Source: Rhizobium sp. Q54 (GTDB lineage: Bacteria; Pseudomonadota; Alphaproteobacteria; UBA7879; VGCX01). Taken from it: DNA of 46,437 bases. Shown in pieces: positions 1 to 46,437 of this stretch. The position numbers and the translations under genes were made by a program. Under the pieces are notes generated by a model. The model had not been told where the DNA came from and searched no databases. It worked only from the letters and a program-made list of their open reading frames with translations. Location: NCBI GenBank assembly GCA_945870825.1, contig CAMBTM010000010.1, forward strand, positions 1-46,437, in the 5' to 3' direction. Position 1 is the first letter of the stretch, and each line of letters opens with the position of its first letter.

Positions 1-214
1 ACATCCAACAAACCCAACCTGAATCCTAAAAACCCAGATCTTTTAATGAACATCTTTTTTAAATTCTCTCAAGGCCTGTATCAACAAGCCTCCACCCTTA
101 TATAACCCCTTCATCCCACCAGTCAACCCCTTCCTTAAACTATTTTTAAGTAAAATCAGAGCATTTATTACTTTTATGTTTTTTAGCCCCACACACGCCC
201 CCTCTAGGGCGGTG
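1..214. other. Gene-poor stretch before repeat copy A
   Basis: No gene can be supported here. A minus-strand open frame (43-231) runs into this stretch, but it begins inside the inverted end of the adjacent repeat, so its start is repeat-derived. Its last 45 or so codons are basic and hydrophobic and could be the tail of a gene truncated by the repeat. I recognise no family. Confidence 0.4.
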
Positions 215-580
215 CTCTGGAGCTGAACCAACGCCTACGAAATTTATGACAAAGAAAAACCCTTTTCTCCATCGATCATTCAGACACCGCTAAAGCCCCA
301 CCAGTTCCGTCCTCCAAAGCCCACCGAAGGTGGGCGTGGGATCGAGAAAAATAGCCCGTTAGGGCTACTCACGATTTGACTCCCTCACCATTTTAGAGGG
401 GTGAAAGGCGGCATTTTAGCCATTCGGCTAACCTCCTGGGTCCCACGCCCTGCCTGCGGCAGGACTCTGGAAGACGGCGTCGGGGGGGGCTAAAATACAG
501 TATTTTCAAGGACTTTAAAACCAAAAAAAAGCCTACATTTCTCTCACACATTTCGTAGGCGATGGTTCAGCTCTGGAGGC
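215..580 (+). repeat. Dispersed hairpin-rich element, copy A
   Basis: This is a roughly 365-bp element bounded by inverted ends: AGCTGAACCAACGCCTACGA at 221-240 is matched in reverse complement at about 549-574, with one mismatch over 23 bases. Between the ends lies a chain of short perfect hairpins: GCCCACC-gaa-GGTGGGC, TAGCCC-gtta-GGGCTA, TTAGCC-attc-GGCTAA, CCTGCC-tgc-GGCAGG and AAAATAC-a-GTATTTT. The same sequence recurs at 13966-14440, 36237-36598, 45565-45698 and 46103-46437. It encodes no transposase, so it is MITE-like. The inverted ends and copies are seen directly; mobility is inferred. Confidence 0.9.
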
Positions 581-13965: not shown

Positions 13966-14440
13966 ATATTTCGTAGGCGATGGGTCAGCTCTGGAGCTGA
14001 ACCAACGCCTACGAAATTTATGATAAAGAAAAACCCTTCTCTCCATCGATCATTCAGACACCGCTAAAGCCCCACCAGTGCCGTCCTCCAAAGCCCACCG
14101 ATCCCCCCGACGCCGTCTTCCAGAGCCCACCGAAGGTGGGCGTGGGATCCAGAAAAATAGCCCATTAGGGCTACTCACGATTTGACTCCCTCACCATTTT
14201 AGAGGGTTGAAAGGGGGCATTTTAGCCATTCGGCTAACCTCCTGGGTCCCACGCCCTGCCTGCGGCAGGACTCTGGAAGACGGCGTCGGGGTGCTAAAAT
14301 ACAGTGTTTTCAAGGGCTTTAAAACAAAAAAAGCCTACATTTCTCTCACACATTTCGTAGGCGTTGTATCAGCTCCCGAACCACGCCTACGGGGTGGTGT
14401 GGGGACCCAGGAGAATTTAGCTATTTGGCTAAAAACTTAA
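13966..14440 (+). repeat. Dispersed hairpin-rich element, copy B (composite)
   Basis: Same element and orientation as copy A. It starts with a complete palindrome of two inverted ends placed head to head (about 13967-14017), as if one element's end lies against another's start. It carries an extra segment with a second CCCACCGA near 14096-14130. After the right end at about 14375 comes a further hairpin (GAACCACGCC / GGGTGGTGT) and a second copy of the GACCCAGGAG...TTAGC...GGCTAA segment. An open frame at 14207-14440 is purely the repeat read through. Confidence 0.88.
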
Positions 14441-19928: not shown

Positions 19929-19996
19929 CCCCTCCTCAGCCCCGGGGCCCATAGCCTAGGGCCTCACGTTTTTCATTGTCGGTGAGGAAACTGCAT
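19929..19996. repeat. 68-bp direct repeat, left copy (att-like)
   Basis: CCCCTCCTCAGCCCCGGGGC is the first part of a 68-base sequence that recurs without a single difference at 21114-21181. The right copy is the 3' end of the portal coding sequence (last 20 codons and stop). This left copy lies outside any gene. The two bracket exactly the RhuM gene and its 76-base leader. Confidence 0.95.
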
Positions 19997-20072
19997 AACA
20001 CCATCTTTTGATTGCAGAGATCGCGATTTTTTGCGAGGGTACATAGAAAACTAGCTTCGTCATGAGGTCACG

Positions 20073-21113
20073 ATGGAAAAAAAATATACACTTCCCAATG
20101 AGATCATCTTTTATGAGACAAAGGACCGAAAAATTTCCATCGCTGTGAGATTTGAGAATGACGACATATGGCTGACTCAAAAACATATGGCAGAGTTATT
20201 TGAGGTGAATATCAGAACTATCAGTGAACATCTAAAAAATATCTTTACAAGCAAGGAACTTAATAAAGATTCAGTTATCCGGAAATTCCGGAATACTGCT
20301 ACTGATGATAAACATTACGTAACTCAGTTTTATAACCTTGAGGCCATCATTGCTGTTGGTTATAGAGTGAATTCAGAACGTGGCATCGCTTTTCGCATTT
20401 GGGCAACTGATAAACTCAAAAACTATATTTTCAAAGGTTTTGCCATTGATGCAAATAGATTCAAAGAAGGCTCTAAATTCGATAAACGATTCTTTGATGA
20501 ACTTCTAGAAGAAATAAGGGAGATTAGGGCATCCGAACGGATGGTTTACCAAAAAATAACAGATATTTATGCCACAGCTATAGATTATTCCCCTCAATCC
20601 GACACTTCTTTCCATTTTTTTTCGTCTGTTCAAAATAAGTTACACTTTGCAGCAACTGGCAGTACGGCTGCAGAAATTATTGCCAGCAGAGTCGATGCTG
20701 CCCATCCTAACATGGGCCTTACAACCTGGCGGAAAGGCCCGAGGGGAAAGATATTTCTATCAGATGTAAGTGTTGCCAAGAATTACCTAACTCATACAGA
20801 GCTTTCAAAGCTCAATCGCATCGTGAATATGTATATAGATTACGCAGAATTTCAGGCTATCAATGGAAAATTGATGACCATGAAAGAGTGGTCAGAAAAA
20901 TTAGATGCCTTTTTGACATTTAATGAGCAAGATATTCTAAAGGGTCTTGGCAACATATCCCACGAAACTGCAAAAACGTTGGCCGAGAAAGAATATGAAC
21001 TTTTTAGAAAGAACCAAGACCAACTCTACCAGTCTGATTTTGATAAACTTTGCAATACTACGAAAGATTTAAGTCTGTTTAAAAAACCCAAAATAAACAG
21101 TGAGCCCGTTTAA
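20073..21113 (+). CDS. RhuM-family protein
   Basis: This intact 346-residue member of the RhuM family, named after a Salmonella island gene, is common in mobile and phage-derived DNA. The N-terminal region has a DNA-binding-like segment IWLTQKHMAELFEVNIRTIS followed by HVTQF-like HYVTQFYNLEAIIAVGYRVN, and RGIAFRIWATDKLKNYIFKG, the family's best-conserved block. The C-terminal half (about 170-330) holds FAATGSTAAEIIASRVDAAH and MTMKEWSEKLDAFL. The molecular function of the family is not established. The ATG at 20073 follows AGGTCACG. The gene is opposite to its phage-type neighbours and its stop directly abuts the right 68-bp repeat, so it arrived as a one-gene insertion. Confidence 0.92.
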   Translation: MEKKYTLPNEIIFYETKDRKISIAVRFENDDIWLTQKHMAELFEVNIRTISEHLKNIFTSKELNKDSVIRKFRNTATDDKHYVTQFYNLEAIIAVGYRVNSERGIAFRIWATDKLKNYIFKGFAIDANRFKEGSKFDKRFFDELLEEIREIRASERMVYQKITDIYATAIDYSPQSDTSFHFFSSVQNKLHFAATGSTAAEIIASRVDAAHPNMGLTTWRKGPRGKIFLSDVSVAKNYLTHTELSKLNRIVNMYIDYAEFQAINGKLMTMKEWSEKLDAFLTFNEQDILKGLGNISHETAKTLAEKEYELFRKNQDQLYQSDFDKLCNTTKDLSLFKKPKINSEPV

Positions 21114-21181
21114 CCCCTCCTCAGCCCCGGGGCCCATAGCCTAGGGCCTCACGTTTTTCATTGTCGGTGAGGAAACTGCAT
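21114..21181. repeat. 68-bp direct repeat, right copy within portal 3' end
   Basis: Identical to 19929-19996. On the minus strand it encodes the portal C-terminus (ECSFLTDNEKREALGYGPRG and stop). Integration that rebuilds the end of the target gene is typical of site-specific recombinases acting at gene 3' ends. No recombinase is visible here. Confidence 0.95.
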
Positions 21182-22293
21182 TGTTCCAGTCTTGACCACA
21201 AGGACTCACGTCTTAAAACAAGGGCGGGTATGTTTTCTATATCATAGGTGAATTGAAAAGCCTCACCATACAAGGAACATAACCATCGGTTCATCTCAGA
21301 CATGATTTTATCCAAAAGTGGCAAAATCGTATCTTCCCACAAATGAAAGCGTGCCTCTCGGTAATTGGCAAAGGTCGCATCACCCGGCACCCCCACCAAC
21401 ATAGCGGGCACCCCAAAGGCTTGGGCGATTTCACGCGCTGACAGGTACTTGCCCGACACATAATCCAGATCCTTGGGTTTAACCCCCATCTCTTGCCATT
21501 TTATATCCCCTTCTAACAAAACCACACGTCCTGCATTATCACTCCCTTGAAACGCTTCTTTCAAGTCATCTCTGAAGGTTTGAAATTCTTCCTCAGACAT
21601 ATACTTCTGGTTAAGTTGGTTAAAAATCAAAGCACCACTAGGACGTCCTCCATTTTTCATCAATGCCAAGTTATGGTGCCCCACCTCGTTGTGCTGGTCG
21701 ATACTGGCCGCTGCTGCCTCAACGGCACTCATGCCATACCAATCATTCAAAGGATGAAAGGTCTTGATGTGCAATAAAGGGGAAACAGAAGCCTTGGGGG
21801 ACCGTTGAATGACACGAGATCGGTCCCCCACTGTATAAAGATAGTAGGGTTCAGGGGCATCTGGTACCACCTGTACCCGGTCAGGACGCAAAAGATAACA
21901 TTCACGCTGCTTCTTTTCTGTTGCGACCAGTTCCACATAGGCGTTGCCAGATAACATTAGATGGGATGTGAGCGCCTCCAAAAAAGAAACCCCGGTTTGG
22001 CCGGGGTTGGGGGTTCGTATAAGATCCAATAAAGGATGATGATCAAGTGGTTGATTTGCCTTATGAAGCACCCAAGGCACGCTCGCCAAGTTCCGCGCGA
22101 CCAAGGTCACAGAGCGATACACAATGATATTTTGATTATAGCCCTCCTTGACAAGGTGGTGATAGGACCGAGGCGTTCCAACAGGAATCCCAGGCGTTGC
22201 CCCCATGAGAGGCCGATTCTTTTTACGCGGTTTATTGGTCCGCTTTGACTCTTGTATCAATGTTTCTTTAATTTTAGTAAGCCATGATTTCAT
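21121..22293 (-). CDS. HK97-type phage portal protein (GTA g3-like)
   Basis: The 390-residue protein is counted from the ATG at 22293 (MKSWLTKIKETLIQESKRTN), which has AAGAAGGA upstream; the open frame upstream of that is not portal-like. Portals form the dodecameric ring at the capsid vertex through which DNA is packaged. Family features: NQNIIVYRSVTLVARNLASV, HPLLDLIRTPNPGQTGVSFL, HLMLSGNAYVEL, LHIKTFHPLNDWYGMSAVEA, AREIAQAFGVPAMLVG and the terminal LTDNEKREALGYGP. The length and end are typical of alphaproteobacterial GTA portals. The gene looks intact although its 3' end is duplicated 1.1 kb away. A DUF4143 gene interrupts the cluster upstream. Confidence 0.92.
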   Translation of the reverse strand: MKSWLTKIKETLIQESKRTNKPRKKNRPLMGATPGIPVGTPRSYHHLVKEGYNQNIIVYRSVTLVARNLASVPWVLHKANQPLDHHPLLDLIRTPNPGQTGVSFLEALTSHLMLSGNAYVELVATEKKQRECYLLRPDRVQVVPDAPEPYYLYTVGDRSRVIQRSPKASVSPLLHIKTFHPLNDWYGMSAVEAAAASIDQHNEVGHHNLALMKNGGRPSGALIFNQLNQKYMSEEEFQTFRDDLKEAFQGSDNAGRVVLLEGDIKWQEMGVKPKDLDYVSGKYLSAREIAQAFGVPAMLVGVPGDATFANYREARFHLWEDTILPLLDKIMSEMNRWLCSLYGEAFQFTYDIENIPALVLRRESLWSRLEQCSFLTDNEKREALGYGPRG

Positions 22294-22330: not shown

Positions 22331-22375
22331 TAGACCATACTCCAGAAATAGCTGCGAAAATTGGAGCATGGTCTA
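22331..22375 (-). terminator. 14-bp inverted repeat between portal and ATPase genes
   Basis: TAGACCATACTCCA (22331-22344) is matched in reverse complement at 22362-22375 with one G-T pair and a 17-base loop. Read on the minus strand it is followed by TTTTTT, so it can act as a terminator ahead of the portal gene. It also lies just upstream of the plus-strand ATPase start and could be an operator. The structure is seen; the role is inferred. Confidence 0.6.
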
Positions 22376-22381
22376 AAAATA

Positions 22382-23551
22382 ATGTTTGTTGAGCGATTAT
22401 TAAAGTTTCCCCATGAAAGAAGCTTTTTTCTGTTTGGGGCAAGAAACACAGGCAAAAGAACCCTTTTAAAGCATGTTTTTCGGGAAAAAGAAGCCCTATG
22501 GATCGACTTGCTCGATCCAGAAACAGAAGAACGTTACGCCCGCAATCCTTCTTCTTTTCGCCAAGAAGTTCTGGCTCTCAAGGATCCTATAAAATATGTA
22601 ATTATCGATGAAATTCAGAAACTCCCAAAACTTCTGGATCTCGTCCATCAACTGATTTAATCCACTCCCCTCATTTTTATTATGACAGGATCCAGTGCCC
22701 GCAAACTAAAGTATGGGGGTGCTAATCTTTTGGCTGGCAGAGCCTTTGTTTACAACCTCTATCCCCTAACATCTTTAGAAATAGGCAAAAATTTCGATTT
22801 AGACCAAGCGCTCTGTTGGGGGACACTTCCAGCGATTCTCTACAAAATGAAAACCGATGAAGACAAAATTAATTTTCTCAGATCCTATACACAGTCTTAT
22901 TTAAAGGAAGAAATATGGCTTGAACAATTCATTCGTAAAGTCGACCCTTTCCGGAAATTTTTGGAAGTCGCCGCCCAATGTAATGGTGAGATTATTAATG
23001 TTGCCAATATTGCACGCGATGTGGGTGTGGATGATAAAACCGTTAGGCAATATTTTTCTATTCTTGAAGATACGCTCATGGGATTCAGGCTTGAACCTTA
23101 TAGCACTTCTTTGAGAAAAGGGCTCCTGTCAAAACCTAAGTTTTATTTCTTCGATGGTGGTGTTTCCAGGTCATTAACAAGAATGCTAACCGTTCCATTA
23201 AAAAAAGCCAGCAGCGATTATGGAAAAGCCTTTGAGCACTTCGTCATTCTTGAGTGCATCCGTCTTGCCAATTACTACTATCCAGATTATCGGTTTTCTT
23301 ACTTAAGGACTAAAAACGAGGTGGAAGTTGACTTAGTCGTTGAACGTCCAGGCAAAAAAACTCTCTTCATCGAAATCAAAAGTGCCCAAGAGATTTATCC
23401 AGAAAAACTTTCTTCATTTCTTACCTTTACAAAAGATATCCCCCACAGTGAGTCCATCTGCATGTCTCAAATACATCAGGCTCAAAAAATAGACCATGTC
23501 CTTGTATTGCCCTGGCGCGAAGCACTCCAGACATATTTTGTTGATTCTTAG
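22382..23551 (+). pseudogene. AAA ATPase with DUF4143, broken by a stop
   Basis: From the ATG at 22382 the frame encodes about 389 residues of the AAA_14/DUF4143 ATPase family, but codon 93 is TAA (22658-22660). Sequence on both sides is in the same frame and continuous with the family (VIIDEIQKLPKLLDLVHQLI | stop | STPLIFIMTGSSARKLKYGG), so a single GAA-to-TAA change explains it. The Walker A segment is also abnormal, GARNTGKRTLL, with Arg26 where Ser/Thr is required. The DUF4143 C-terminal half is intact (GKAFEHFVILECIRL, NEVEVDLVVERPGKKTLFIE). It lies opposite the phage-head genes it splits. Such ATPases are often mobile and of unclear function; this one is probably inactive. Confidence 0.88.
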
Positions 23552-36236: not shown

Positions 36237-36598
36237 CTCCAGAGCTGACCCATCGCCTACGAAATGTGTGAGAGAAATGTAGGCTTTTTTTGGTTTTAAA
36301 GTCCTTGAAAATACTGTATTTTAGCCCCCCCGACGCCGTCTTCCAGAGCCCCGCTGCAAGCGAGGCGTGGGATCCAGAAGGTTAGCCGAATGGCTAAAAT
36401 GCCCCCTTTCAACCCTCTAAAATGGTGAGAGAGTCAAATCGTGAGTAGCCCTAACGGGCTATTTTTCTGGATCCCACGCCCACCTTCGGTGGGCTTTGGA
36501 GGACGGCACTGGTGGGGCTTTAGCGGTGTCTGAATGATCGATGGAGAGAAGGGTTTTTCTTTTTCATAAATTTCGTAGGCGTTGTATCAGCTCTGGAG
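36237..36598 (-). repeat. Dispersed hairpin-rich element, copy C
   Basis: A full copy in the opposite orientation to A and B: CCAGAGCTGACCCATCGCCT at the left end and its inverted partner at about 36571-36596. All the internal hairpins except CCTGCC/GGCAGG are kept; that one is replaced by CCCGCTGCAAGCGAGGC. A further partial end (GGACGGCGTCGGGAAAGG, then GGTGGGCGTTGTATCAACC) follows to about 36640. Confidence 0.9.
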
Positions 36599-45564: not shown

Positions 45565-45698
45565 CCCCCCCAAGACCGTCTCTAGAGCCCACCGAAAGTG
45601 GGCGTGGGATCCAGAAAAATAGCCCGTTAGGGCTACTCAAGATTTGACGCACCCAAGATTTAGACAGTTGAAAGGGGGCATTTTAGCCATTTGGCTAA
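45565..45698 (+). repeat. Dispersed hairpin-rich element, partial copy D
   Basis: The middle of the element only: CCCACCGAAAGTGGGCGTGG, ATAGCCCGTTAGGGCTACTC, then a diverged stretch and TTTTAGCCATTTGGCTAAAC. The inverted ends are missing and one hairpin arm has decayed (GAAAGTGGGC). Same orientation as copies A and B. It ends against the 145-bp element at 45710. Confidence 0.8.
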
Positions 45699-45709
45699 AC
45701 AATCATGTA

Positions 45710-45854
45710 TAATACCAATTCCCATTTTTAAATGATGGCTCAAGCAAACAAGCGGTTAAGGCCGAGGAGCGTATTAAATATACGTGACCCCAGGCCCCAA
45801 GAAGGCCGATCACCATGTTCAACGACGCAATCGTTCAAAAGGGGATTTGGTATA
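45710..45854. repeat. 145-bp inverted-repeat element, copy 2
   Basis: Begins TAATACCAATTCCCATTTTT and ends TTCAAAAGGGGATTTGGTAT-A. Same length and end sequences as 25630-25774, with a diverged interior: shared blocks include GTGAC near the middle and AATC.TT.AAAAGGGG near the end. TA at both borders. Confidence 0.7.
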
Positions 45855-45908
45855 AGGAGCAACGTAGGTTGTCATGTGCTAGCGCATCGCCTTTGGGCTC
45901 ATCTTGGA

Positions 45909-45975
45909 TCCCCACACCACGCCGTTTGTCTTCGCCCTAAGGGACTTTGACGCAATGCGGCGTGGTTCGGGATGA
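45909..45975. repeat. Long inverted repeat
   Basis: ATCCCCACACCACGCCG near 45909 is matched in reverse complement by CGGCGTGGTTCGGGAT near 45959-45974, giving a stem of about 16 bases around a 34-base spacer. The motif ACCACGCC/GGCGTGGT also occurs in the hairpin at 14376-14405. No gene here. Confidence 0.55.
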
Positions 45976-46102
45976 CCGCCCGTAGGGAAATGGCATCGTT
46001 TGACCTGGAAAACCGTTTTCTAAAATCAAGTTTCTACTGTTATTTTTGGCTCTTATGCAAAACGAGTGGGTAAGCATTTAAAAACACCCCCGCTGCCCGT
46101 CA
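45976..46102. other. Gene-free stretch between repeats
   Basis: About 130 bases without coding potential between the long inverted repeat and repeat copy E. Nothing further can be supported. Confidence 0.4.
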
Positions 46103-46437
46103 TCCAGAGCTGAACCATCGCCTACGAAATGTGTGAGAGAAATGTAGGCTTTTTTTGTTTTAAAGCCCTTGAAAATAATGTATTTTAGCACCCCGACGCC
46201 GTCTTCCAGAGTCCTGCCGCAGGCAGGGCGTGGGACCCAGGAGGTTAGCCGAATGGCTAAAATGCCCCCTTTCAACCCTCTAAAATGCTGAGGGAGTCAA
46301 ATCTTGAGTAGCCCTAACGGGCTATTTTTCTGGATCCCACGCCCACCTTCGGTGGGCTTTGGAGGACGGCACTGGTGGGGCTTTAGCGGTGTCTGAATGA
46401 TCGATGGAGAGAAGGGTTTTTCTTTATCATAAATTTC
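46103..46437 (-). repeat. Dispersed hairpin-rich element, copy E (cut by window end)
   Basis: CCAGAGCTGAACCATCGCCT begins the element in the same orientation as copy C. All internal hairpins are present, including CCTGCC/GGCAGG. The window ends inside the right inverted end. The 65-codon minus-strand frame here is repeat-derived and parallels the one in copy B. Confidence 0.9.

Follow-up and report, generated by a model that had tools for sequence, protein, structure and literature searches.

A lone rhuM gene between 68-bp copies of a phage portal gene end, and the same duplication footprint around other RhuM and DUF4143 genes

At the 3' end of a phage portal gene, a single rhuM gene is enclosed by two perfect 68-bp direct repeats, one of which is the end of the portal gene itself. 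A comparable footprint, that is, a lone gene between long copies of a neighbouring gene end, recurs at other RhuM genes as well as at DUF4143 genes, and our main interest is that these two unrelated families have it in common. The best account of the footprint, and in our judgement a likely one, is a cargo-tolerant insertion that duplicates its target, putatively through staggered-break or template-switch repair.

A single rhuM gene lies between two copies of a portal gene end

The window analysed here is a stretch of 46,437 nucleotides which constitutes the entire contig C10 of a 1.15-Mb genome in 29 contigs; judging by its nearest named relatives, the genome is alphaproteobacterial. The genes around the rhuM unit encode phage head functions (capsid, portal and prohead protease). 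An earlier note on this DNA had described two perfect 68-bp direct repeats around a single RhuM gene, a 76-base leader, and a RhuM stop codon in contact with the right repeat, and we confirmed all of these observations. The two copies are identical at 68/68 positions and can be extended to 72 bp with one mismatch, exactly 76 nt separate the left copy from the ATG, and the TAA (21111-21113) immediately adjoins the right copy (Table 1). The description of the right copy as the last 20 codons and stop of the portal gene was essentially right; the exact content is the final 19 and one-third codons and the TGA (21121-21123), with 7 nt past this stop. The sole ORF of the 1117-bp insert is rhuM, preceded by its leader, and no transposase or integrase was found between the repeats, in agreement with the earlier statement that the unit has no integrase.

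Table 1. Features of the rhuM unit and its target in the window
Feature	Position	Strand	Remarks
68-bp direct repeat, left copy; non-coding, duplicated from the portal 3' end	19929..19996	.	68/68 identity; two copies in the genome
rhuM leader, 76 nt, begins the insert	19997..20072	+	insert 1117 bp, no terminal motif
rhuM, 346 aa, Pfam Virulence_RhuM, PADLOC candidate PDC-S05	20073..21113	+	profile matches
Right repeat copy: 7 nt downstream, stop and last 19 portal codons	21114..21181	.	
HK97-type phage portal gene, insertion target, intact	21121..22293	-	PF04860, TIGR01537

An exact 68-bp repeat at 1.2 kb spacing cannot be a product of chance, since nothing else among the direct repeats of the window approaches this pair. 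The repeat occurs twice in the whole 1.15-Mb genome (29 contigs), and a dispersed palindromic element was ruled out on this ground. The residues CSFLTDNEKREALGYGP encoded by the repeat are kept in the portals of congeneric and confamilial genomes; therefore the repeat derives from the target and not from the insert. Residual portal homology past the left copy (residues 360-371) proved to be an extension without identity, which we attribute to chance. Searches found no plasmid DNA relatives, and 40 bp taken from the repeat had no match among viral contigs. The second 68-bp copy could in principle be an artefact of assembly, but the same footprint was seen across many independent assemblies. A dispersed repeat 300-400 bp long also occurs several times in the window (214-561, 13968-14375, 36250-36593 and 45598-46425), in either orientation and in part near the contig ends, and it is probably the element that broke the assembly.

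RhuM is a phage-defence candidate

The window RhuM gave a full-length match to PF13310 (E = 1.6e-102, positions 1-249/252) and matched the PADLOC phage-defence candidate PDC-S05 (E = 7.6e-141). Many of its relatives are found in restriction-modification (RM) operons and defence islands, and RhuM-like proteins have been proposed as toxins or as a defence domain in RM and PrrC neighbourhoods (PMC3710099). We found no sequence relative of the protein in the PDB. Its predicted structure (mean pLDDT 83, pTM 0.60) weakly matched DdrC of Deinococcus, a DNA-binding damage-response protein (Foldseek E = 1.4e-3, TM 0.22/0.30), and we treat a possible DdrC-like fold as a lead only. In the literature that we searched, we found no account of how RhuM genes insert.

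The footprint recurs around RhuM genes

The earlier note had suggested looking for duplicated gene ends beside further RhuM genes, and such cases were indeed found. We assembled about 300 RhuM gene calls with their flanks from genomes and viral contigs, and a first look revealed 8 clear cases. Enclosure was subsequently scored by a fixed criterion (repeat length 40-300 bp, identity 85% or more, both copies no more than 300 bp from the gene ends); as this was fixed after the first look, the independent test is the second sample only. Repeats enclosed 9/138 RhuM genes of the first sample and 5/400 other genes, the nine including L208, which together with L133 is a weak case because the repeats of these two loci resemble a terminator and a dispersed repeat. 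In the second sample, fetched afterwards, the counts were 4/58 and 0/143, and with both samples pooled the difference between RhuM and other genes is significant (p = 5e-5). Among the enclosed control genes were a Bro-N gene, an AAA_13 ATPase gene and an hsdS gene. Scans of RhuM-Fic and of other single proteins in viral sequences yielded few loci.

The length of the duplication varies from 42 to 263 bp across cases, and in the usual layout one copy is the true end of the neighbouring gene while the other is a truncated duplicate. The target genes, several of which were named by eye from the sequence without a profile scan, are diverse. Those with a duplicated 3' end encode HsdM (L130), HsdS (L288), an MmeI-type methylase (L028), a repressor (L178, 125/127 bp) and an iron-sulphur assembly protein (L320). 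A 5' end is duplicated at hsdM (L098, copies 89% identical), hsdR (L282, 215 bp, 98%), glnD (L120) and a helicase gene (L277, copies 86% identical), the leader of an integrase gene is duplicated at L150 (63/63 bp), and short intergenic or unassigned DNA at L045, L115 and L182. A flush junction at the RhuM stop codon was considered as a special feature of these units and rejected (7/15 versus 44/172 in the background, p = 0.13, not significant). E. coli was also rejected as a population test, as its RhuM lies at selC, mostly as a remnant, and no insertion polymorphism can be read there.

DUF4143 genes carry the same footprint

When the same criterion was applied to DUF4143 genes (PADLOC PDC-S01), 7/38 were found to be enclosed (p = 1e-6 versus the pooled other genes), four of them in the genome of the window itself. 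The idea that the unit is special to RhuM could thus not be upheld, as DUF4143 genes show the same signature more often. At one of the four (L408, contig C21, 1840-3377), a DUF4143 gene lies between 104-bp copies of the engB/ysxC 3' end; the cargo gene is convergent and its stop is 12 bp from the intact engB copy, which is the layout of the portal rhuM unit. At another of the four, 57 bp of the 3' end of an integrase gene are duplicated. The remaining two are weaker, the duplicated DNA being intergenic and partly repetitive. This 1.15-Mb genome holds ten DUF4143 genes, an unusual expansion. In a congener, G002 (L425, contig C35, 1035-3603), three copies of the lgt 5' end occur and a DUF4143 gene separates the first from the second; this site is a case of stacked insertions.

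State of the target sites in related genomes

The earlier note had also suggested a search for an empty portal 3' region in relatives. In a confamilial genome (G001), 12 bp separate the portal gene from the prohead protease gene that comes after it, with no RhuM at the junction. In the congener G002, a DUF4143 gene is convergent on the portal 3' end, with no duplication. These relatives have one portal end and no RhuM, at a portal identity to the window of only 57-62%, so they do not provide a same-species empty site at the DNA level. Different species have thus acquired different lone genes at the portal 3' end. The window also contains a DUF4143 ATPase gene (PDC-S01; 22361-23551, + strand) immediately upstream of the portal gene, with one in-frame stop after about 99 codons; no long repeats were found to flank it.

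A single-copy target without the insert was seen at the DNA level at the hsdR site (L282), where the 5' end is present once and RhuM is absent in five congeners. The carrier's two copies share 98.1% identity with each other, versus 95.8 and 93.4% with the nearest relative, and it follows that the duplication is local and recent. At the glnD site four close relatives likewise have no RhuM and one glnD 5' end each. The repeats there are only 86-89% identical, so that import with foreign DNA is possible at this site. Other inserts are also present in this glnD intergenic region, which is a hot spot, and some of these have long repeats of their own. Between glnD and a ThiF/MoeB-like gene (L240 and L243, in genomes G669 and G790), various lone genes accompany duplications of 150-255 bp of a neighbour end.

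The hsdM-hsdS junction of related genomes (L130, L237, L239) is empty or contains RhuM-Fic or RhuM-Fic plus ORF6N. At L130 the duplicated hsdM end accompanies the second gene, ORF6N, whereas in a relative RhuM-Fic stands at the same junction without duplication. Some repeats may therefore stem from operon rearrangement and not from insertion. For L320 the genus is represented by one genome, and the viral relatives of the L150 and L178 target genes are too distant to reveal an empty site.

A proposed insertion process and its alternatives

According to the scheme that we favour, a fragment of about 1.1 kb with the lone defence-candidate rhuM would have entered just past the portal 3' end. Each strand may have been nicked or broken once, at points separated by tens to a few hundred bases, and gap filling would then have duplicated the stretch between them; alternatively, one-ended repair may have switched template and so copied the target a second time. 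Either way the target gene would keep one complete copy, so that insertions at gene ends are tolerated, and this preservation by duplication would explain why insertions appear at gene ends. Homologous recombination between the flanking repeats could later result in loss or tandem amplification. Since the process accepts different cargo, it probably reflects host or general repair and not an activity of RhuM, with selection enriching selfish or defence genes. No motif is common to the duplicated targets (their longest shared words are as in shuffles), no common insert ends were found among the units compared, and no recombinase within the units examined. Together with the variable lengths, these findings rule out both a constant att site and a classical transposon. 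An IS or transposon was also rejected on the missing transposase and on the 68-bp duplication, a length which, as had been pointed out before, is too great for a transposase target duplication.

The alternative that survives best, which we nevertheless regard as rather unlikely, is homology-assisted import, in which foreign DNA brought RhuM already beside a related gene end. One junction would form by homologous recombination within the gene end and the other illegitimately, leaving the gene end doubled. The exchange of cargo between hsdM and hsdS in RM operons fits this scheme, as do copies that differ from each other as much as from related species (glnD, 86-89%; L098, 89%; L277, 86%). However, the copies in the window, L150, L178 and L282 differ little or not at all, those of L282 are nearer to each other than to the nearest relative, no donor with a portal-RhuM linkage was found, and the core genes engB, lgt and glnD would each require a matching donor. 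Import is possible for the older, more diverged cases.

The earlier note had read the unit as site-specific integration at the portal 3' end, with the recombinase possibly supplied in trans. The rebuilt gene 3' end, the repeat flush with the RhuM stop and a tyrosine-integrase gene elsewhere in the genome agree with this reading, but we now find it very improbable, as the targets are unrelated and share words only at shuffle level, the lengths span 42-263 bp, 5' ends and intergenic DNA are used as well as 3' ends, and every unit examined lacks a recombinase. The interpretation given in that note is thus, as a whole, partly supported. There is least to recommend the view that RhuM drives its own insertion as a one-gene mobile element: RhuM is the sole gene common to RhuM units, is enriched over its neighbours and has a weak fold likeness to the DNA-binding DdrC, but the footprint is also present at DUF4143 units, which lack RhuM, conserved ends are missing from the insert, the protein has no PDB sequence relative, and the DdrC match is weak.

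Relation to known systems and significance

The target-duplicating insertion that we favour resembles the "insertion with long target duplication" that is known from restriction-modification genes of H. pylori (Nobusato et al. 2000, Gene 259:99, as cited in PMC1643837 and PMC3031569). As far as these citing accounts describe it, both have an extra gene between long target repeats of variable length, no transposase, and a single-copy empty site in relatives (here at L282). Our cases differ in that the cargo is a single non-RM gene (RhuM, RhuM-Fic or DUF4143; in the window RhuM only, with no RM gene set), and in that the insertions are often at core or phage gene ends and occur several times in one small genome. 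Judged from the same accounts, RM genes are what has so far been reported as cargo and do not belong to the mechanism itself, so that the window case is a variant. A gene 3' end is also duplicated at the border of integrative elements that restore the 3' end of a gene or tRNA; unlike these elements, the present units have no integrase and no constant att site, and they use 5' ends and intergenic targets. A site-specific integrative element was rejected for the window unit, which has one ORF, no integrase and no common core. We conclude that the window case belongs to a known insertion type, that its cargo is new, and that the type recurs within one genome.

More tentatively, lone defence-candidate genes (RhuM, RhuM-Fic, DUF4143) could be integrase-free one-gene mobile units which share an insertion machinery that duplicates 40-260 bp and prefers or tolerates gene ends, with at least five events in this genome; we hold this possible, though the odds are somewhat against it. 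The footprint bears on how lone defence genes jump without an integrase or transposase, and it would mark a general integrase-free way for such genes to move. Its recurrence in two unrelated families at rates of about 7% (RhuM) and 18% (DUF4143) versus 1%, together with repeated events within a single genome and, at another locus, congeners in which the site is empty, makes the mechanism testable by comparing carrier and empty strains, and the footprint provides a simple search rule for other mobile lone genes.
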